Positions 4,084-52,827 of a DNA stretch of 64,000 bases are shown here, in pieces. Below the pieces are notes generated by a model. The model did no database searches. It saw only the letters and a list, made by a program, of their open reading frames with translations, and was not told the origin of the DNA. Source of the DNA: Terriglobales bacterium (lineage in GTDB: Bacteria > Acidobacteriota > Terriglobia > Terriglobales > Acidobacteriaceae). Each line of letters starts with the position of its first letter. Position 1 is the first letter of the stretch. The stretch covers positions 1 through 64,000 of the forward strand of contig DASRFG010000010.1 of the NCBI GenBank assembly GCA_035651655.1. The letters are read 5' to 3'. The position numbers and the translations under genes are program-made.

Positions 4084-4818
4084 TTGTCTGAAGTTGACCA
4101 AGAAGCTCGCCTGCAGCGCGAGGTGATTGCCTCGAAGCTTGCAGAATGGACACGCTTAGCGGCAAAGGCGCTCACCACCGCGAGAACTGCAGCGGCGCCC
4201 AAGTTCGACGCTTTGAAGCGCGCATCAGTTCGTCAGGCACAGCGTGTGAAAGATTGGGGAGCCGCCAAGCTGGCGGAGATACGGGCCGACTCGCCCCAAA
4301 CTGTGGAAGCCGTGCCCGACGATTCTGAACGTTGGTGGCGTCAGGGATGGCAAAAGTTGACGCAGCCGGGCGTATCTGCAAAGACCGCGGCATTGATTAG
4401 CGAAATGGATGGGGTGGAGTTTCCCTTCCACAATTTGATTGAAGCAAAGACCCACGCTCTGTTGCAGCTCCGTACTGCCGCTCGCCTGGGTTGCGAAGCT
4501 GAGATTCAGTTGCACGCGCAGCAATGCGTCGCCCAGGGCTGGCCGATGGAGTTCATCCACGCCGCGCGCAACGGCATTCGCAATCCCGGCTTCAGCGAGC
4601 AAGAAAATCTCTTGCTGCGCTACGCCGACGACATCGCTAGAACACCCACCGACGTTGATCTGCAAACCTCGCGCGAGTTGCGGCGGCACTTCACGCAGCC
4701 GCAGATTGCCGAAATCACCGCTTCAATCTGCTACGAAAATTTCCGCGCCCGCTATCGCAACGCGCTTAGCTTTCAAACCGAATTGACCGCAGAACTGGAA
4801 GCGTTCAGCCGGCGCTAG
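4084..4818 (+). CDS. Carboxymuconolactone decarboxylase/AhpD-fold protein, atypical
   Basis: The 244-aa product uses a TTG start preceded by GGAGGTAAGG that overlaps the bactofilin stop. Residues 1-75 are basic and helical. Residues about 115-235 match the all-helical CMD/AhpD fold: LQLRTAARLGCEAEIQLH, then LLRYADDIARTP, then the family's ending pattern QIAEITASICYENFRARYRNAL. In redox-active members the first helix carries Cys-x2-Cys-x3-His; here it reads CEAEIQLH, so the second cysteine is replaced by Glu and disulfide chemistry is doubtful. A non-redox or binding role is inferred. Linkage to bactofilin suggests one operon. Confidence 0.72.
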   Translation: MSEVDQEARLQREVIASKLAEWTRLAAKALTTARTAAAPKFDALKRASVRQAQRVKDWGAAKLAEIRADSPQTVEAVPDDSERWWRQGWQKLTQPGVSAKTAALISEMDGVEFPFHNLIEAKTHALLQLRTAARLGCEAEIQLHAQQCVAQGWPMEFIHAARNGIRNPGFSEQENLLLRYADDIARTPTDVDLQTSRELRRHFTQPQIAEITASICYENFRARYRNALSFQTELTAELEAFSRR

Positions 4819-4982
4819 CCAGCGGTCAATCGCGGAGTCCAGGGCCTTCCCCATGGGAAGCAAAAGACAATCGCGGCGGTGATCAAGGCGCCCGACCCAG
4901 CGCTGCCGAAATCCCAAAACTACTAGGATAGGAAGTCCGCAATTTAACCGAGTCCATTCTCGACTTGAATCATCGGAACACT

Positions 4983-5483
4983 ATGACGATCAGTGACCTG
5001 CTACTGCCGGAATTTGATGTAGAGATGAAGAAGACGCGCACCACCCTGGAGCGCATTCCCCACAAGCCCGACTTCAAGCCGCATGCCAAGTCCATGCCCA
5101 TGGGGAAGCTCGCGCCTCATGTGGCGCAGCTTACCGGCTTCGGGTTGGGCATCTTAACCACCCCAGAGGTGGATTTCTCCAAGGGCAACTACAAGCCGCT
5201 GCCGTTCGAGTCGGCTGCGCAACTGGTGAAAGTCCTCGATGAGGGCGCGGCCAAGGTTCGCAGCGCGCTCGCCGGCCTGCCCGACGAGGCATGGAAGGAG
5301 AACTGGCGGCTCGCCTGGCAGGGTAAGACGATCTTCGAAGGGCAACGCTTTCTCGCGTACCGGGAGATGTTTCTCAACCACCTGGTGCATCACCGCGCCC
5401 AGCTCGGTGTGTACCTGCGTCTGAACGAGCAACCGGTTCCGGCAATCTATGGGCCGTCGGCCGACGACACAATGGGATTTTGA
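4983..5483 (+). CDS. DinB-superfamily protein
   Basis: The 166-aa product (ATG at 4983; a TTG 18 nt upstream is less likely) resembles DinB/YfiT four-helix-bundle proteins. These are metal-binding helical proteins, some of which act as thiol-dependent transferases. Visible marks are an N-terminal helix with KLAPHVAQLTG, a middle helix with AKVRSALAGLPDEAW, and a late helix FLNHLVHHRAQLGVYLR whose histidines would complete the metal site. The ending NEQPVPAIYGPSAD is typical of the family. No link to neighbours is evident. Confidence 0.82.
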   Translation: MTISDLLLPEFDVEMKKTRTTLERIPHKPDFKPHAKSMPMGKLAPHVAQLTGFGLGILTTPEVDFSKGNYKPLPFESAAQLVKVLDEGAAKVRSALAGLPDEAWKENWRLAWQGKTIFEGQRFLAYREMFLNHLVHHRAQLGVYLRLNEQPVPAIYGPSADDTMGF

Positions 5484-5576
5484 AGAATCTAGTTCTGCGA
5501 TGACCCCACGTTTGCCAAACGACGGAGTGCCCGACGTAACTTGGATGCCTGTTTCTGCGACGTTTAGCATTAGCCC

Positions 5577-6014
5577 ATGAGCAAACCGACCGCAAGAGAT
5601 CTGTTCGTCGTCATTGGACTGTGGACGTTTTCAAGAATGATGGCATTTTTTCTACTTGTTCTCATCGGGGCACTGCACGTTCGGATGACATTCACGGGAG
5701 ACGTGGGCATGGTGATGATGTGGCTCTCTCAGGGATTGCCCTACGACCTCTTTGCGGCTCTCGCAGCCATCACACTGGTTTGGGTGATTGAAACGAAAAA
5801 GGCTTTACTGTGGCTGGCTGTGCTTGCAGCCTTGTACCTGTATGGCGAGAGCATGTGGGTCTGGCGGACTCTCACGCACGGGTGGCACGAACCTCCACAC
5901 ACATCTGATTACATAGGAATTCTGGCGCGGGCGGTAATCCCAACGATCGTGTGTTTTGTTGCCGGTACTTGGTGGGCAAGGCGTTCCGCCGCGTCTGCGG
6001 ATGTCGCCTCGTGA
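5577..6014 (+). CDS. Four-TM hypothetical membrane protein
   Basis: The 145-aa protein is dominated by four hydrophobic helices, at about residues 9-32, 45-69, 74-93 and 113-133, with a short loop TLTHGWHEPPHTSDY between the third and fourth. No enzyme or transporter motif is recognised. It lies alone between DinB and selC. Confidence 0.6.
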   Translation: MSKPTARDLFVVIGLWTFSRMMAFFLLVLIGALHVRMTFTGDVGMVMMWLSQGLPYDLFAALAAITLVWVIETKKALLWLAVLAALYLYGESMWVWRTLTHGWHEPPHTSDYIGILARAVIPTIVCFVAGTWWARRSAASADVAS

Positions 6015-6059
6015 CTGATGCATATCCCCATTGCGCTCAAATAACTTGCGCGAGGCAAT

Positions 6060-6157
6060 TGGCGGAAGCGAGTGGGAGTCGAACCCACCGATGACGCCGT
6101 AAGACGCCGTCCGCCGGTTTTGAAGACCGGGATGATCACCGGACCACATGCGCTTCC
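6060..6157 (-). tRNA. selC: tRNA-Sec (anticodon UCA)
   Basis: Read on the minus strand, the acceptor GGAAGCG pairs with CGCTTCC (6151-6157 with 6064-6070). G73 and an encoded CCA end follow at 6060-6063. The anticodon stem CCGGT/ACCGG encloses the loop CTTCAAA, giving anticodon TCA, which reads UGA. The T arm is GTGGG-TTCGACT-CCCAC. A long variable arm, GC-rich with GACGGCGTC-like elements, separates anticodon and T arms. About 98 nt total length and the GGTCCGGTGA D-arm match bacterial selenocysteine tRNA rather than a tRNA-Ser or a suppressor. No selA, selB or selD is in the window. Confidence 0.93.
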
Positions 6158-6207
6158 GACCAGCATTAGCTTATCAAAGGCGGCATTGAGACCACTCTCC
6201 GAGCCAG

Positions 6208-6268
6208 ACTCCGGCCACTCTAACGACCCACACTCCGGCCACTCTAACGACCCACACTCCGGCCACTC
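6208..6268. repeat. 24-bp tandem direct repeat, about 2.5 copies
   Basis: The unit ACTCCGGCCACTCTAACGAC plus CCAC occurs perfectly at 6208-6231 and 6232-6255; the first 13 bases repeat again at 6256-6268. It lies between selC and the zinc-finger gene, 50 bp from the tRNA 5' end. No spacers, so it is not CRISPR. Confidence 0.95.
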
Positions 6269-6380
6269 CCTGAGAACACTCAAATGCTCTCTTCTTCCGG
6301 CACGCCGGCTCAGATTCAGTCGCCGTCACTCTGGTTCTCGATCCGCTGTGATTCGTCGCCGCGCAATATAGAATCAGGCC

Positions 6381-6668
6381 ATGGCCAACTTGCAGCAGAT
6401 GCAAGACGCTGACACCGGAGTCATAGTCTGGCAGTGTTTGGATTGCGGGTGGGAATCCCTGCCCATGGACACGACCGAGGTTCAAGCTCAGCCTGAACAC
6501 ACGTGTCCGCCCTGCGAGACCTGCGGCGGAACTGGCTATCTGGAAGAAGGATTGATCACCTCAAGCCGCTGCCCTGATTGTGAAGGCAAAGGCGCGCGCC
6601 GGGTTGACGCTGCATCGGCGGCGGATGCTGAGTCAGAAAAGTCCGAATCGGAAGAGCCGGAATCGTAA
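6381..6668 (+). CDS. Small zinc-finger protein with DnaJ-type CxxCxGxG motifs
   Basis: The 95-aa protein has CLDC near residue 19, then CPPCETCGGTG and CPDCEGKG (about residues 47-72). The last two are the Cys-x2-Cys-x-Gly-x-Gly knuckles known from the DnaJ zinc domain. It should bind zinc and may act as a small chaperone-like or scaffold protein. The tail is Ser/Glu-rich and acidic (ESEKSESEEPES). Its stop codon TAA is immediately followed by the ATG of the permease gene, so the two are translationally linked. Confidence 0.78.
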   Translation: MANLQQMQDADTGVIVWQCLDCGWESLPMDTTEVQAQPEHTCPPCETCGGTGYLEEGLITSSRCPDCEGKGARRVDAASAADAESEKSESEEPES

Positions 6669-7481
6669 ATGGTCAGCTTCTTTTCCATCATCGCACTGGG
6701 ATTTTTTCTGGGGATGCGGCATGCGACCGACCCTGACCACGTCATTGCGGTCACAACCATTGTGAGCCGGCAGCGCAGCCTGGCAAGTTCGGCCATGGTC
6801 GGAGTGTATTGGGGAATCGGTCACACGCTTACGATTTTCGCGGTGGGCAGCGCCATTATTCTCTTCGGCCTGGTCATTCCGGCGCGGGTGGGTTTGAGCA
6901 TGGAGTTGTCGGTCGGGCTGATGCTGATCTTGCTGGGATTGATGAACGTGGCGAGTTTCATACGCTCAATTCCCTCGGAACCGGCACATGCGAACGGCGA
7001 TTCTGGCGCGGAGTTGGCCCATTCGCATCACCACGCTCATGGGGATTACATTCACAACCATCGGCACGAACACGGGCCGGAGGCCCATCCCCACTCGGTT
7101 GAGCAGACGCCGGTGGCATGGCTGGACCGCGTGTGGGGAAAATCCGCGCTGTACCGGCCGTTGCGCCCGCTCGTTGTGGGGACGGTGCACGGTCTGGCGG
7201 GTTCGGCGGCGGTAGCCCTCCTGGTGCTGGCGACGATTCGGAACGCGCACTGGGCGATGGTTTACCTGCTGGTTTTTGGAGTGGGCACCATCGCCGGCAT
7301 GATGCTGATTACCATGAGCATTGCGTCGGGCCTTCGATTGCTCGGGAGCAACCGCCGCTTTTCGGGCCACTTGGGATTGGCTTCAGGGGTGCTCAGCCTC
7401 GGCTTTGGGACCGTGCTGGCGTATCAGGTCTTCGTTATGAATGGCCTGCTGACCGCGCATCCGCAGTGGATGCCGCGGTAG
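6669..7481 (+). CDS. NiCoT-like nickel/cobalt permease
   Basis: The 270-aa multi-pass protein carries the NiCoT signature His-x4-Asp-His in its first helix (GMRHATDPDHVIAVTTI, residues about 15-31). It has a cytoplasmic or periplasmic histidine-rich loop (HSHHHAHGDYIHNHRHEHG, about residues 118-137) that suits capture of divalent metal. Further helices include VGTVHGLAGSAAVALLVL and GVGTIAGMMLITMSIASG, typical of HupE/RcnA/NicO-like transporters. Direction (uptake or efflux) cannot be decided; the His loop also occurs in RcnA-type efflux proteins. It is coupled to the upstream zinc-finger gene. Confidence 0.82.
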   Translation: MVSFFSIIALGFFLGMRHATDPDHVIAVTTIVSRQRSLASSAMVGVYWGIGHTLTIFAVGSAIILFGLVIPARVGLSMELSVGLMLILLGLMNVASFIRSIPSEPAHANGDSGAELAHSHHHAHGDYIHNHRHEHGPEAHPHSVEQTPVAWLDRVWGKSALYRPLRPLVVGTVHGLAGSAAVALLVLATIRNAHWAMVYLLVFGVGTIAGMMLITMSIASGLRLLGSNRRFSGHLGLASGVLSLGFGTVLAYQVFVMNGLLTAHPQWMPR

Positions 7482-42880: not shown

Positions 42881-43494
42881 ATGAGCAAACGTGTCTCGGA
42901 TGACGCGATTGATATGCTGTTTCGCACTGCCCGGACCTACAACGGGTGGCTTGATTAGCCCGTAACAGATGAGTCTCTACGTCAACTCTATGATGTGCTG
43001 AAATGGGGACCAACAAGCGCCAAGCAAGTCCTGCGCGGTTTCTGTTCCTGCGAAGCAAGGATGCAAAGGAGCGCCTGCTCCCGGCACTTTCACCGGGGAA
43101 CTTAGAGAAGACAATGGCAGCACCGGTAACGGCCATCGTCGGGTATGACGTGCGTTTCTATGAGAAGCTGCCAAAGCTCTCGCCGCACAACCCGAATTTT
43201 CGGGACATGTTTGCAAACAACCCCGAACTGACAGAGAGCACGGCAAGACGAAACTGCACGCTGCAAGGCGCTTACCTGATCATGGCTGCGCGTGCCCTTG
43301 GGTTAGACTGCGGACCAATGTCAGGTTTTGACAATGGGAAGGTTGATGAGCAGTTTTTTGGAGCAGGCGTTGAGCGGGAGGACATGTGCGAAGAATACGT
43401 ACCCGGTACTATCAAATCGAATCTTCTGTGCAACATTGGGTACGGTGATCCTACATCGCTTCGTCCGCGTTTGCCACGCCTCGACTTTGAATAA
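42881..43494 (+). pseudogene. rutE: Nitroreductase / malonic semialdehyde reductase (RutE-like), disrupted
   Basis: The ATG at 42881 begins the family pattern MSKRVSDDAIDMLFRTARTY, NGWLD, then an in-frame TAG where Lys is usual, then [22 protein letters not shown] frameshift follows; from about 43020 a second frame carries [69 protein letters not shown] and the end [22 protein letters not shown]. RutE reduces a toxic aldehyde in uracil breakdown. The stop codon plus frameshift make it non-functional unless they are assembly errors. Confidence 0.85.
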
Positions 43495-45299: not shown

Positions 45300-46739
45300 A
45301 TGAAGGCGAGCAAGCTCCAGGGCAAATTCGGTTTAATCGTCGTTGTGGCGTTGCTGGCGGTTGTCAGTGCATTCGTCGCTCAGTCGCCTGTCGCGAACGG
45401 ACAGGAGGGCACCCCGCGTACCACTCCCGCGCCGAACGAGGAGGCCGAGTTCGCGAACGCCTATTGCAAGACAAATGTGAAGACTGCGATTCCGTCGGGT
45501 AGCGAGCCAGAAGCCCGCAGATACTACCAGGACCTCGCTTCGAAGATCGGCTTTCAGGTCCAGGATCCCCGCGCCAATGAGCCCGGACCTACGACAACGC
45601 TCGTGGATGTGGCGGTTTACTTGGGCTACACCCCGAAGCCTCCCGCTCCGCCGCTCACAGCCAAGGATCTTGAGGGTGGGTCCCCGTCGGAACTGATGGA
45701 TCCTGCCGCGCTCGGGAGCCGTCTGGGCGGCATCTCACTCTCCGCCGGTGACGTCTTGGTCGCACGGTTCTTCGCCCCGAAGATTTCCGATCTGAGCCAA
45801 CCCTCGATTACGAAGGCCGGCTGGCGCAAACTGTTGCGGTTACGCGCCCAACCGGGCTCTGCCGCCGCCGCGCATGGAATTCAGTATGGGATAATGCTGT
45901 TCAATTTCTTCGCACCGATCGAGCAGCTCGACCCCTTCACTGGAAATGATTCCGTAAATACGCAAACAATCCTTGTGGGGAACGACTCCCGCAAGTCTCT
46001 CTATTGGATCGATTTTGGAAAAACGAGCGAGGGGGCCAAGCTGAGTCACCAACTCAATGCATTTTTCGATGCAGGGCACATCCCGGCCTCGGCGACGGCA
46101 CAGAATGGCGGGGTCGCGGGGTACTTTGTACCGTGTTCCTGCATCTCGTGCCATGGAGGACTACGGCTGGATTTTACGACTACCCCGCCAGCACCTGACA
46201 ATCATTTTCGTGCGCCACTCCTCGACTACCTCGATACGGACCATTGGCAGGACCGAACGGTGAAAGGCGACGACTTCACAGCACTGAAGGCACCCGTGCT
46301 CTTCGATGCGGGGACCTTTGGAGTCATTCTGCTGATAAACGAAGAAATCCAACGACAGAACGCGGCAGCGCAGCCCGACAGTGTGCTGCGGAGAGCTGCG
46401 GAGCACTGGCTTGCGTGGCACCTTCAGCAAGGCGCAGGGGCCGAGCCTCTGTTCGGCCGGGCTCTTCGCACCTCCGCCAACTCACCCGTCTGGAATCCAA
46501 GCGACCCGACTGACGCTGAATTGCTTCCGAAGTTCAACAGATTCTGCTTTCGGTGCCATGGCTCGGTGAAATTCGACGTGCTTGATAAAGAGATGGTGCT
46601 CGCGCTTAGGTCAAAATTGAACGCGGCGTTATACCCAAAGGATCAGATTTCTGATCCCCGATCCGCGATGCCCCCCGATAGAGACCTTCCGCCTGATGAT
46701 CTAAAGAAGCTCCGCGATCTGATCCTCAGGTTGAAGTAG
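45300..46739 (+). CDS. Exported di-haem c-type cytochrome
   Basis: The 479-aa protein starts at an ATG with AGGAGGAG just before it. It has a signal peptide (LIVVVALLAVVSAFVAQSPV, residues about 12-31). Two haem-binding CxxCH motifs are present: CISCHG (Cys281-His285) and CFRCHG (Cys416-His420). The rest is not recognised beyond a periplasmic fold. As first gene of the operon with LodA- and LodB-like genes 20 bp further on, it is a plausible electron acceptor for the oxidase, which would make that enzyme a dehydrogenase in practice; this is inference. Confidence 0.8.
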   Translation: MKASKLQGKFGLIVVVALLAVVSAFVAQSPVANGQEGTPRTTPAPNEEAEFANAYCKTNVKTAIPSGSEPEARRYYQDLASKIGFQVQDPRANEPGPTTTLVDVAVYLGYTPKPPAPPLTAKDLEGGSPSELMDPAALGSRLGGISLSAGDVLVARFFAPKISDLSQPSITKAGWRKLLRLRAQPGSAAAAHGIQYGIMLFNFFAPIEQLDPFTGNDSVNTQTILVGNDSRKSLYWIDFGKTSEGAKLSHQLNAFFDAGHIPASATAQNGGVAGYFVPCSCISCHGGLRLDFTTTPPAPDNHFRAPLLDYLDTDHWQDRTVKGDDFTALKAPVLFDAGTFGVILLINEEIQRQNAAAQPDSVLRRAAEHWLAWHLQQGAGAEPLFGRALRTSANSPVWNPSDPTDAELLPKFNRFCFRCHGSVKFDVLDKEMVLALRSKLNAALYPKDQISDPRSAMPPDRDLPPDDLKKLRDLILRLK

Positions 46740-46759
46740 TCGAATAGGAGAGCCAACTG

Positions 46760-48553
46760 ATGCCATCCACGTTCAGAATTCATCCGGCGCTCGGCATCGC
46801 TCGTGTCGGCGATGCTGACGGACCAGGGTTCATCGGACCGGAACAGCCTGACATGCCCGCCAACTGGAACTTAGACACGGGAGGATTTGGGAACTTTAAG
46901 GTTGCGGGTCGCATCAGGCGCCAGGGAGTGCGTTTTCGAGTCTTCGAATTTGCTGCGGACGGGTCGCTGGTCGGGGAGGCTCTGCCCGGTCAAGGCGCTG
47001 TAGTAGCTATCGAGTGGACAGTCCATGTCGCAAACCGCAAGGCGTCGTTTTTCAAATTTGACGGCCCTAGGGGAGAGAACGGCGACTTTAGCAAAAACGG
47101 CGCGCGTAACGATGACGTAATCGGAAACGATGCCCGATCACAACTCGACATCGATCCGGGTCCCAAGGCGGTGTCAGGCCAATCGGCGACCCCTATTATC
47201 CTCGCGAACCCGAATCCCAAGACGAACCAAACGATCAAGGACTTGGGCGACATCAGCACTGACGACGCCGGACGCCTGATCTTCTTCGGGGGTCATGGGA
47301 AGACCCTCCAACTCTCCAACGCAGCCGAGATCCAAAACTACGTTAACAATGACGGATGGTTCGACGATGTCAGCGATGGGCCGGTCTCCGCTGTCATAGT
47401 CTTGAAAGACGGCAACCGAGTGGAGGCGATCGGGGCTTGGGTTACAGTCGCTCCACCGGACTTCGCCCCTGCGGTTGGAAACGTAGTGTCCCTATATGAC
47501 ACCATCTGGGACGTATTGGTTCGGAATCCAACGATCCCGATCCCGAATCTAGCGATGTTCCGACCCGGGGGCACGCTGGCCCGCCTCCAGGAGCAGCGCG
47601 ATGACTGGAATCCTGCGGCGAATCGATTCAAGTCCTACCAGCCCTCCTATGTCAATGACATCGCAGATGTGCTTCAGCGCGCGTTTAGTGCGACATTTCT
47701 GCACGATCCACCCGACCTGAAGAGCCCTTTCCATAACACGATCGCTCCTCATGTCTGGGCTGAGCTCGGGGACCCCGATACCGTGAAGGATATCCTTCGA
47801 ACAGACGTGTTCAAAAAGATGAGGGACCCCGACTCCACTAGCCCGGCGGACTGCAGCCAAATGCCAAGAGGTCTCGGGGACGAGTACTGCGACGAAAGTG
47901 AACACCCGGAGGCCGGTTCCGCCGAGCGGACGAATCCTAAACGCTTCTTTTCTCTAACGCGTACCCAGTACGCGATGTTCGCCCAGTGGGCCGCTCGCAA
48001 GTTCAAGCCGGACGGCACTTCGCCCCCTTCCATCCCAACAGCACCACCCGCGATCACGCCAGACGGTCTAGATCGGGCGGCACTGGAGAACGGTGTCGGG
48101 GGCCCATTTTTCCCGGGTATCGAAGTCAGTTGGATTATTCGAAATCCAACGATCTACATAGAGGCATTTCGTTTTCAGCTAGGTAAGAAAATCGCGGCTG
48201 GAGATGAGAGCGTCGGAATTCCAGATGTAACCGTGCGCCCCGGCTTTCTCACACAGCATATGGCTCTTCCATGGCAGGCGGACTTTCGTGACTGCAAGAG
48301 GGAGCCTCTTACTAACCCTGCTACAGGCGCGCTTACCTTTGCGATGTGGTGGACGGGGCAGCGCCCGGACGACGTCTTCCCCGAGGCAACTCCAGACGAA
48401 CAAGTGCCATGGACACGGCCCCCCGACTTCAATGCGTTGGACGGCGACCCGGCGCGCTTCAAGGAAATGGTAGCCGGTTGGGCCAAGTTGGGGTTCGTGG
48501 CTCGGCAAGGTCTGAACCGCAAGAAACCGTGGCTAGAGACAGAACGATCGTGA
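46760..48553 (+). CDS. LodA/GoxA-family quinoprotein amino-acid oxidase
   Basis: The 597-aa protein matches the LodA/GoxA family of cysteine-tryptophylquinone enzymes that oxidise free amino acids (lysine, glycine). Family features are the start FRIHPALGIARVGDADG, GRLIFFGGHGKTL, and the quinone region LPWQADFRDCKRE (Cys512) with FAMWWTGQRPDDVF (Trp530). Cys and Trp would form the cofactor. Only 18 residues separate them, against 65 in LodA. A ribosome-binding site (AGGAGA) precedes the ATG. No signal peptide, as in LodA. Substrate is unknown. Confidence 0.85.
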   Translation: MPSTFRIHPALGIARVGDADGPGFIGPEQPDMPANWNLDTGGFGNFKVAGRIRRQGVRFRVFEFAADGSLVGEALPGQGAVVAIEWTVHVANRKASFFKFDGPRGENGDFSKNGARNDDVIGNDARSQLDIDPGPKAVSGQSATPIILANPNPKTNQTIKDLGDISTDDAGRLIFFGGHGKTLQLSNAAEIQNYVNNDGWFDDVSDGPVSAVIVLKDGNRVEAIGAWVTVAPPDFAPAVGNVVSLYDTIWDVLVRNPTIPIPNLAMFRPGGTLARLQEQRDDWNPAANRFKSYQPSYVNDIADVLQRAFSATFLHDPPDLKSPFHNTIAPHVWAELGDPDTVKDILRTDVFKKMRDPDSTSPADCSQMPRGLGDEYCDESEHPEAGSAERTNPKRFFSLTRTQYAMFAQWAARKFKPDGTSPPSIPTAPPAITPDGLDRAALENGVGGPFFPGIEVSWIIRNPTIYIEAFRFQLGKKIAAGDESVGIPDVTVRPGFLTQHMALPWQADFRDCKREPLTNPATGALTFAMWWTGQRPDDVFPEATPDEQVPWTRPPDFNALDGDPARFKEMVAGWAKLGFVARQGLNRKKPWLETERS

Positions 48554-49614
48554 GTAAGGCGCCTGCGGTGGCGGTATTTGGTGCAGGCCCAGCCGGGACT
48601 ATGGCCGCTCTGCAGCTCGCCCGGGCAGGACTCAACGTCCAGATCATCGCCCGCCAACTGCAACGGCGCTGCGGTTTTGCCGAGACGCTCTCGCCCGAAG
48701 GGCGGAGCGCACTCGCACTTGCTGGGCTCTGGGGTCGGCTCCCGAGGGGCGTTGCCGTCCCGTGTCCAGTTGTCGTTAGCGCATGGGAGCGGCCAGAGCC
48801 ATCATACCGATCCTTCATCACCAATCCGTATGGTTGCGCCTGGCATGTCGACCGCCCCCGATTCGACAGCTGGCTTCTATCGGAAGCGGAAATAGCCGGC
48901 GTAACCCTGGTGACGGGTACTGTAATTGGCATTCGACGTACCAACGGTCACTGGGCATTCGATGTCCGCCATACAGATGGTAAAGCATGGGCTGCGAATG
49001 CGGATTTCTTGGTCGTAGCTACGGGACGGTACGGTCCCGCCGTGAGACTGGGAAACCGTGAGCGGATTGATGCGCTTTGCTTAATCGGCGGCTTGTCCGA
49101 ACCCATGGCGGATGCTGGAAACGCGCTCCTTATAGAAGCAGCGGCGGACGGATGGTGGTACTCGGCACCGGTACCCGGTGGTCGAATGTTCGCCGGTTGG
49201 ATGATGGATGCAAATCTCATGGCAGGCAAGCGATATGGCGAGGCTATGGAGGCCGCCTTCTCTCGCGCGCCACTCACTCGAGCGAGATTGGCGAATCCAC
49301 CCGAGGCGTGTTGTGTCGGAGTGGCGAGCTCGGCCATGAGGCCCTGCGCTGGTAAGGGCTGGATAGCCGTCGGCGACGCCGCGCTAGCCCGTGATCCCCT
49401 TTCAGGGGAGGGGCTGGCCTATGCGCTCCGCTCGGCGCGGGAAAGTGCAGAGACCATCCTCAGCGCGCTAGAAGGGGATCCGTCTGCTTGGCAGGCGGCG
49501 TCGATCCGAGGAGCCGCAGCTGTTGCTCAGTATCGGAACCAGAAGGCCTTCGCGTACCGAGCGGCCCAACATCGGTGGCCAAGGGAGCGGTTTTGGGCTC
49601 GTAGGCTAAGCTAA
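48550..49614 (+). CDS. LodB-like FAD-dependent oxidoreductase (CTQ biogenesis)
   Basis: The 354-aa protein starts at GTG 48550, overlapping the LodA-like stop by 4 bp (GTGA). It has an N-terminal Rossmann motif AVFGAGPAGTMAALQLARAG and a second FAD motif GWIAVGDAALARDPLSGEGL, the pattern of the flavoprotein monooxygenase / tryptophan-halogenase group to which LodB belongs. LodB is needed to hydroxylate the tryptophan during tryptophylquinone formation in LodA. Coupling to the oxidase gene supports that role. Confidence 0.85.
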   Translation: MSKAPAVAVFGAGPAGTMAALQLARAGLNVQIIARQLQRRCGFAETLSPEGRSALALAGLWGRLPRGVAVPCPVVVSAWERPEPSYRSFITNPYGCAWHVDRPRFDSWLLSEAEIAGVTLVTGTVIGIRRTNGHWAFDVRHTDGKAWAANADFLVVATGRYGPAVRLGNRERIDALCLIGGLSEPMADAGNALLIEAAADGWWYSAPVPGGRMFAGWMMDANLMAGKRYGEAMEAAFSRAPLTRARLANPPEACCVGVASSAMRPCAGKGWIAVGDAALARDPLSGEGLAYALRSARESAETILSALEGDPSAWQAASIRGAAAVAQYRNQKAFAYRAAQHRWPRERFWARRLS

Positions 49615-51465: not shown

Positions 51466-52827
51466 TCAGAGGCGCCCGGCCTTTTTGTGCAGAAAAAAAC
51501 GTTCAAATCTCTCGGCGGCAGTCGCAAACTGTGCAGCTGGTCCCTCCAAAACATGGAGCGCGCGCCGCGCGACATCTTCGAGAGGCTCAACCTTAGCAAG
51601 TTCTTGTTCGAGGAAGTGGCTGAAAGACACTAGGGCTTTTTGATGCTCATTAACCCGCTTACTTGGATTCGCGATTGGCGCGGGCATAGTGCCCTCGTCA
51701 ATGTGCTCAGGCGTATTAGTCCGGGGAGCTTGCAGTTTGGTCAGATCCGAACCGAATGAGGCGGCTTTTGCAGTCCTGTTACCCAGCGGACCTAAACCCC
51801 ATTTGTCGGAAACATACTTGAGCAAGCTCGTGTGATCAAAAATCGTTGGTATGACTCCTGGTTGAACCCAGGGTGAGACGAGAAGCGCGGGAACGCGCAC
51901 TCCAAGCTGATTGAAAGCGTATTCGAATATCTTGTCATCTGGGGGCTCAGCGGCAGGAGGGGTCAGATGATCGTAAAATCCACCGTGTTCATCGTACACA
52001 AATAAGAAGAGCGAACTGTTCCATAAATCTTTATTAGCGCGCAACGCATTATAAACCTGTGCCAGCAGCCGTTCTCCGGCCATGACGTCCGAGGGAGGAT
52101 GTTGGTCATTTTGCTCAGCGCCTTTGTATGCTGGCTCGATAAAACTGAACTGAGGGAATTCTTTGGCGGCGCCCGTGACATCGCTAAAGAATGTATCCAT
52201 GGAATGATAGTGGAGTGCATGCTTCAACTGGTGGATCATCACGAGAGACTGCGGAAGCCCATGGTGATAAATCTTCCAGGAAATGCCTTTCATTGATAGA
52301 TGATCGTAGACCGTCGTTTGGTCATAACAGTGCCAGTTTTTGTCGAAAACGCCGGACGGCATCTTGACGTGTCCATTCGAAGTACCGCTGTGAACAAAGA
52401 ACCGGTTTGGCCACGTAGGTCCTGGTAATGAAGAGAACCAATGATCGCAAATGGCGAAATGTTCGGCGAGCGTGTGGAGAACAGGCAAGAATCCGCGGCG
52501 GTAAATACCCATTACTTCTGCCTTCCGCTCTAACGGTACATGCGGATATGACTGTACGTAATCGGACACGTACCCGTATTTCGGATTGAGTTGCCTCAGC
52601 ACGTTTACGTGCTCGTGCACGGGGTCAGGATCTGTCGTACGTTCGTTGGTGTGTAGCTGCGCTATTTCGTGGGTAGTATCTGGATAGTCGGTGGCTGTGT
52701 AGAGGGTGGGGCCGCTGATATCGACGCCTTCTAATTCGGGATAGACCTCCTTCATGCAGCCGAGCATCTGATCGAACGAGTGGTTCTCAAGCATTAAGAC
52801 AATGACATGTTGAATCGGATCTTCCAT
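51466..52827 (-). CDS. Phospholipase C / acid phosphatase-type phosphoesterase
   Basis: The 453-aa enzyme belongs to the phosphoesterase superfamily of bacterial phospholipase C (PLC) and AcpA. It shows the nucleophile region VIVLMLENHSFDQMLGC (residues 8-24), HFAICDHWFSSLPGPTWPNR (metal site), and LFLFVYDEHGGFYDHLTPPA. Late VRVPALLVSPWVQPG and IFDHTSLLKYV are also typical. It has no clear signal peptide, although most relatives are exported by Tat. It would cleave phosphodiester or phosphate ester bonds; substrate not known. A truncated paralogue lies nearby at 53634. Confidence 0.88.
   Translation of the reverse strand: MEDPIQHVIVLMLENHSFDQMLGCMKEVYPELEGVDISGPTLYTATDYPDTTHEIAQLHTNERTTDPDPVHEHVNVLRQLNPKYGYVSDYVQSYPHVPLERKAEVMGIYRRGFLPVLHTLAEHFAICDHWFSSLPGPTWPNRFFVHSGTSNGHVKMPSGVFDKNWHCYDQTTVYDHLSMKGISWKIYHHGLPQSLVMIHQLKHALHYHSMDTFFSDVTGAAKEFPQFSFIEPAYKGAEQNDQHPPSDVMAGERLLAQVYNALRANKDLWNSSLFLFVYDEHGGFYDHLTPPAAEPPDDKIFEYAFNQLGVRVPALLVSPWVQPGVIPTIFDHTSLLKYVSDKWGLGPLGNRTAKAASFGSDLTKLQAPRTNTPEHIDEGTMPAPIANPSKRVNEHQKALVSFSHFLEQELAKVEPLEDVARRALHVLEGPAAQFATAAERFERFFLHKKAGRL

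Follow-up and report, generated by a model that had tools for sequence, protein, structure and literature searches.

A di-haem c-type cytochrome gene linked to lodA- and lodB-like genes in a Terriglobales bacterium and in one clade of LodA proteins

Enzymes of the LodA type are described as amino-acid oxidases that use oxygen and produce peroxide. The gene for an exported di-haem c-type cytochrome that precedes lodA- and lodB-like genes in a Terriglobales bacterium (assembly GCA_035651655.1, contig DASRFG010000010.1; the 64,000 nucleotides analyzed are referred to here as the window) raises the question of whether some members of this family pass their electrons to a cytochrome instead of oxygen. 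In a literature search largely confined to papers available without subscription, no published link between LodA-like and cytochrome genes was found, and the word "cytochrome" is absent from the main text of a survey of the LodA family (PMC4417212).

The operon and the predicted cofactor residues

The initial annotation of this stretch described a three-gene operon, and this layout was confirmed: three open reading frames (ORFs) lie on the same strand (Table 1), with a gap of 20 nt between the cytochrome and LodA genes and a LodB gene that has a GTG start and overlaps the stop of the LodA gene. The description of the first product as an exported protein with two CxxCH motifs was also sound, in that both motifs are there and the N terminus is strongly hydrophobic. 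Promoter and terminator scans of the operon yielded about the same as shuffled sequence. Elsewhere in the window are a nitroreductase-family ORF of 163 amino acids (43003-43494), perhaps truncated, for which the match starts at profile position 38 of 167, and, downstream of the operon on the other strand, a Phosphoesterase-family (phospholipase C-like) gene (51466-52827).

Table 1. Features of the operon and of related loci (positions in the window unless a locus is named)
Feature	Location	Strand	Basis or comment
Di-haem cytochrome c gene, predicted exported	45300..46739	+	ORF
Alternative start of the cytochrome gene	45273	+	9 residues longer
Haem 1 motif CISCH, residues 281-285	46140..46154	+	C281, C284 and H285 invariant in 31/31
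Haem 2 motif CFRCH, residues 416-420, class I-like cytochrome c domain	46545..46559	+	C416, C419 and H420 invariant in 31/31
Met457, probable distal haem 2 ligand	46668..46670	+	M457-P458 invariant in 31/31; putative role
LodA/GoxA-family CTQ protein gene	46760..48553	+	Pfam, match to solved LodA, trees
Cys512, expected CTQ cysteine	48293..48295	+	Aligned with LodA Cys516
Trp531 (not Trp530), expected CTQ tryptophan	48350..48352	+	Aligned with LodA Trp581; motif comparison
LodB-like flavoprotein gene, predicted CTQ maturase	48550..49614	+	Matches to GoxB, QhpG and LodB models
Five-haem ORF	L127:8134-11289; also L129-L134, L142, L146-L152, L154, L155		Next to lodA-lodB
Small-protein genes	L044:9280-9606, L045:9251-9646, L046 around 5241, L047:9262-9654, L052:5853-6278		Just downstream of the di-haem cytochrome

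The second protein matched the Pfam domains LodA_N (193.1 bits; cut-off, 26.3) and LodA_C (118.1 bits; cut-off, 25) as well as the solved LodA structure (E = 1.2e-46). Its scores on the NCBI equivalog models, 235.2 bits for LodA (cut-off, 600) and 215.5 bits for GoxA (cut-off, 750), do not place it in LodA proper or GoxA proper. Nothing in its sequence speaks against the use of oxygen.

Cys512 and Trp530, 18 residues apart, had been named in the initial annotation as the quinone pair. The cysteine stood, but its expected partner is Trp531, to which the distance is 19 residues. Trp531 is the second tryptophan of the sequence MWW; it lies opposite W581 of LodA, in a short stretch that alone scores only 2.4 bits, and relatives with a single tryptophan ahead of the motif (FWPARVP) retain the second position. 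For these two reasons it is preferred to Trp530 as the quinone residue. The short spacing had further been taken as the mark of a distinct subgroup. That argument fails because the distance from the cysteine to the equivalent tryptophan runs from 5 to 37 in 36 rows outside the window clade described below (5 in many, 8 to 26 in most others, including two rows at 18 and 19, and 35 to 37 in three) and from 17 to 25 within it. The distance is 15 in a protein above the NCBI GoxA cut-off and 37 in one with a score of 1131.7 bits for the NCBI LodA model (cut-off, 600). With such overlapping values outside the clade, spacing was rejected as a subgroup mark. Judging from the alignment, a better mark is the residue after the CTQ tryptophan, which is T, A, S or C in 20/20 clade members and P (33) or G (3) in the 36 outside rows, the lower-scoring Myxococcota proteins lying outside this comparison.

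The LodB-like protein scored 159.5 bits on the GoxB model, 158.7 on the QhpG model, and 134.9 on the LodB model, against equivalog cut-offs of 400, 240, and 400, respectively. Its QhpG score, as high as that for GoxB and above that for LodB, sets it apart from most of the LodB-like proteins compared. A special likeness to QhpG was rejected, given that all nine LodB-like proteins score 121 to 209 bits on this model.

The di-haem cytochrome

The cytochrome belongs to a family of exported di-haem proteins, defined here from its sequences, for which Pfam has no name or model. Two CxxCH motifs in one protein occurred in 0 of 20,000 shuffles of the window cytochrome, and 47 residues, including both motifs, K161, H374, and M457, are invariant in an alignment of 31 members, many of which are close Myxococcota relatives. 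A hydrophobic stretch is present near the start of 28 of the 29 cytochromes measured, as judged by a crude measure and with some starts uncertain. The commonest Pfam match is a C-terminal Cytochrome_CBB3, detected at E ≤ 5 in 13 of 15 members and scoring 23.3 bits (cut-off, 27) on the C-terminal part of the window protein. Neither the single sequence nor a profile matched any solved structure at E ≤ 10.

Members of this family are found with and without LodA. A tblastn search of plasmids detected the cytochrome on pSymA of Sinorhizobium meliloti (four records; ∼31% identity), and LodA was absent from the 17 kb examined there. When the window cytochrome alone was searched against 396 genomes of its phylum, it found itself and two low-scoring local matches (E = 2.8e-4 and 5.1e-4; <21 bits), which were taken as chance. 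A two-row profile search of genome contigs yielded 14 cytochrome loci; LodA and LodB lie downstream of the cytochrome in six (L041, L042, L043, L046, L049, and L050), and the other eight have no adjoining LodA. Both of the genomes with a free cytochrome that were examined gave zero LodA matches.

A cupredoxin gene (L048:7521-7868) precedes one of the free cytochromes, and another (L054:7971-9866) has a probable cupredoxin-like C-terminal extension. A copper-binding domain was detected in 1 of 15 cytochrome members, which, judged by that extension, is probably L054. Genes for small proteins of about 108 to 141 amino acids with the pattern FADIQ/FSDIQ...FW...MP are located just downstream of the di-haem cytochrome at several loci (Table 1), among them the free cytochromes of L044, L045, L047, and L052. 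These small proteins form two groups that were not connected by phmmer, and no Pfam family was found for them.

The AlphaFold model of the whole cytochrome (pLDDT, 72.1; pTM, 0.77) has a beta-rich part that ends in haem 1, followed by a helical part with haem 2. When the haem 1 part was modeled alone (pTM, 0.80), cytochrome P460 was its first Foldseek match, at a poor E value of 0.15, and P460 or c'-beta proteins took ranks 1 to 4 in VIA with Z scores of 5.0 to 3.9, which fall in the noise range, as a Z score under 8 possibly reflects just a common arrangement. Unrelated fructose bisphosphatases came next at Z 3.8. With the whole model, Foldseek was uninformative and the VIA matches were led by P460 at Z 4.7. 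The alpha subunit of quinohaemoprotein amine dehydrogenase (QHNDH), MauG, and peroxidases were not among the fold matches listed, in a search that cannot rule out such folds. A P460-like fold of the haem 1 part is a lead, not a result.

Cytochrome P460 and c'-beta have catalytic or ligand-binding five-coordinate haems. The weak first matches of the haem 1 domain to these proteins would fit an arrangement in which the LodA-like protein is an ordinary H2O2-making oxidase and the di-haem protein handles the peroxide, with haem 1 as the catalytic site and haem 2 delivering electrons. Catalase-like fusions on other LodA proteins, described in PMC4417212, are also in line with peroxide handling, as is the DHOR-type putative di-haem peroxidase gene of Azospirillum brasilense (L038:1341-3290), which is divergent from an operon of ferritin-like, LodA, and LodB genes. 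However, the di-haem peroxidase and MauG families of Pfam gave no match at E ≤ 1 for the window cytochrome and none at E ≤ 5 in 15 members, haem 1 could be six-coordinate through the invariant H374, and the fold scores are at noise level, next to those of the fructose bisphosphatases. It seems unlikely that peroxide handling is the function of the cytochrome.

Linkage of the cytochrome to one LodA clade

In a 40-row tree, from which two fragments (L033 and L040) and the window itself (L034) had been removed beforehand, the window LodA formed a clade with those of L041, L042, and L043 (support, 100/100) that spans Acidobacteriota and Myxococcota. The LodA proteins of L046, L049, and L050 fell outside this clade, and the starred branches of the tree force at least two changes of label; a second LodA group is also paired with the same cytochrome family. 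At L046, the cytochrome and LodA are separated by a small gene and one of ferritin-like type. Ferritin-like genes are found at some other LodA loci, and tyrosinase and multicopper oxidase genes at another. The cytochrome family was not detected in the flanks of 33 other LodA loci, taken from the phylum of the window and from plasmids (21 of 37 LodA-bearing plasmid records were used), a sample in which the upstream DNA of L032 was not covered.

LodA is present in 2 of 99 relatives of the window's genome, itself excluded, and in 8 of 395 other genomes of the phylum, and those placed on the tree all fell outside the window clade. A search of genome contigs with the window LodA alone found zero relatives. 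This rarity of LodA near the window genome, with none in the clade, suggests horizontal acquisition.

Because the first clade members had come through the cytochrome, a search was made by clade LodA alone. A profile of four clade LodA proteins matched 39 of 195 genomes of the Myxococcota, the phylum of L043; two of these (G482 and G483) were sources of profile rows. Forty other Myxococcota places were examined, the 20 best and 20 of the weaker. The cytochrome was detected by HMM directly upstream of LodA in 15 of the 16 places that scored at least 728 bits, and at the sixteenth (L112) the last 60 residues of the cytochrome are present at the contig edge, which brings the count to 16/16 close Myxococcota relatives. 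It was upstream in none of the 24 lower-scoring places (one-sided Fisher test, 1.6e-11, which ignores kinship). Missing linkage in other genomes was one of the observations by which the initial annotation could have been refuted, by its own account, and this comparison did not refute it.

The window clade comprised 21 rows (support, 99) in a 78-row tree made by a quick method after removal of L135 and L142, in which LodA is partial or split. The distinct subgroup that had been claimed is thus a well-supported clade in both LodA phylogenies. The cytochrome was found by HMM in 19 of the 21 rows, the other two being L112 and L119, so that 20/20 intact members have it upstream, one of the genes being partial at a contig edge. 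L119 (5947-7710) is a decayed LodA without the N-terminal 70 residues, the cofactor region, or the cytochrome. Downstream of lodA-lodB at L112 is an open-ended ORF with six CxxCH motifs (4474-7360). The same 19 LodA-linked cytochromes grouped together, separate from the free ones, and branched similarly to the LodA tree in a cytochrome tree for which the tool gave a long-branch warning.

It is possible that these genes are regulated together or serve a common envelope function, for example in competition or biofilm formation, with zero electron transfer between the two proteins, and the different compartments predicted for LodA and the cytochrome, together with the cytochromes that are free of LodA, would agree with this. 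Against it are the short gap between the two genes (7 to 20 nt in the 11 loci measured), the constant cyt-lodA-lodB order shared by Acidobacteriota and Myxococcota, and the matching tree groups in these two phyla. Furthermore, just one other gene family recurred in at least 4 of the 20 clade loci, namely in 4, in a clustering that put the cytochrome and LodA ORFs together and was used solely to show that further genes are lacking. We regard an association of this kind as improbable. In two clade members, the LodB-like gene is on the strand opposite to LodA (L109:4422-5597 and L110:4380-5561).

In studied relatives, LodB- or GoxB-type flavoproteins suffice for maturation, and LodB was present at all 40 Myxococcota places, with or without the cytochrome. 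Both points, and the unmatched MauG and peroxidase families noted above, argue against a di-haem protein that aids CTQ making much as MauG assists with TTQ in methylamine dehydrogenase, for example by carrying out the final oxidation step on the modified tryptophan. Such a role would be consistent with the di-haem nature of MauG itself, with the loss of cofactor region and cytochrome alike at L119, and with the proposal, in PMC7876137, that the haems of QHNDH carry out the final oxidation to CTQ. On balance, a maturation function is very doubtful.

A different haem protein is encoded at other LodA loci. An ORF with five CxxCH motifs and 1,021 to 1,066 residues is located directly after LodB at 8 of the 24 lower-scoring Myxococcota places, and one of 1,022 to 1,119 residues is present at 9 of 10 further places, the tenth of which (L153) stops at the contig end; these 10 were picked for a match pattern resembling the five-haem group, and the position of LodB was not rechecked there. 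The five-haem protein has weak multihaem Pfam matches only and no match to the di-haem HMM, and it represents a second haem-protein linkage, unrelated to the di-haem cytochrome. Haem proteins have thus joined LodA operons more than once.

Proposed electron transfer and comparison with known systems

The gene set, the residue alignment, the clade, and the gene linkage are best read, with a probability of roughly 0.45, as a CTQ dehydrogenase for amines or amino acids that is linked to a cytochrome. By analogy with known families, the LodB-like protein would make CTQ from Cys512 and Trp531 in the cytoplasm, and the LodA-like enzyme, which may leave the cytoplasm for the envelope or the exterior with no classical signal, as is reported for Marinomonas LodA, would oxidize a primary amine or an amino acid. 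The di-haem cytochrome would then reoxidize the reduced quinone, and haem 2, of the His/Met type, would hand electrons on towards respiration. Electrons would most likely pass from quinone to cytochrome as they do in QHNDH, but with different proteins.

This electron-transfer reading is favored because the linkage within the clade is strict, because other LodA groups have repeatedly recruited haem proteins, and because the LodA-linked cytochromes form one group that branches like the LodA tree. The decayed L119, without both cofactor region and cytochrome, points in the same direction, as do the cupredoxin beside a free cytochrome, the cytochrome c assembly genes present in the window's genome, and the precedent of QHNDH, in which CTQ is combined with two c haems (PMC7876137). 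The pairing of the genes in distantly related bacteria suggests, without proving it, that this clade passes electrons to the cytochrome instead of oxygen.

Some observations weigh against electron transfer in its simple form. The cytochrome family is also found without LodA at many loci, and the 33 LodA loci mentioned above have no such cytochrome in the flanks examined. In addition, the clade LodA proteins seem to have no visible signal peptide, whereas the cytochrome has one: by a crude hydrophobicity measure, and with some starts uncertain, these LodA proteins have no hydrophobic leader and begin directly with the fold. The missing signal peptide is not fatal, because Marinomonas LodA is reported, in PMC2855505, to be secreted while LodB stays inside.

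A broader and more tentative proposal is that the operon represents a new kind of quinohaemoprotein dehydrogenase, in which a LodA-fold CTQ enzyme passes electrons to its own di-haem cytochrome, one from a new family in which a P460-like haem domain is joined to a class I cytochrome c. Such a system might have arisen separately from QHNDH and, if the five-haem group is counted, on more than one occasion in the LodA family. The clade-wide di-haem pairing across phyla and the five-haem group make the existence of cytochrome-linked dehydrogenases in this family directly testable. If the proposal is true, there would be a second natural way to join CTQ with c-type haems, and some members of a family known for oxidases that make peroxide would be respiratory.

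Among known systems, LodA (lysine epsilon-oxidase) and GoxA (glycine oxidase) have in common with the window protein the LodA_N and LodA_C domains, the cysteine and tryptophan of CTQ, and a LodB-like gene downstream. The window protein differs in its scores under both equivalog cut-offs, its separate clade, and the di-haem cytochrome gene upstream. MauG and the di-haem peroxidases resemble the cytochrome as exported two-CxxCH proteins near a tryptophylquinone enzyme; the cytochrome matches none of their Pfam families, so that identity with MauG or bacterial cytochrome c peroxidase is not supported, and its family and invariant residues differ. Cytochrome P460 and c'-beta ranked first when the haem 1 domain was compared with known structures by two programs, but with weak scores and without a sequence match; that part has 280 residues compared to about 145, and the window cytochrome bears an attached second haem domain. 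QHNDH, encoded by the qhp operon, likewise combines CTQ, an exported two-c-haem protein, and a flavoprotein maturase. However, the CTQ protein of QHNDH is a small gamma subunit and that of the window has the LodA fold, the QHNDH operon has further maturation genes whereas the conserved window unit has three genes, and the window cytochrome is without a sequence match to solved structures. The LodA-type CTQ protein and the three-gene unit do not fit QHNDH proper.
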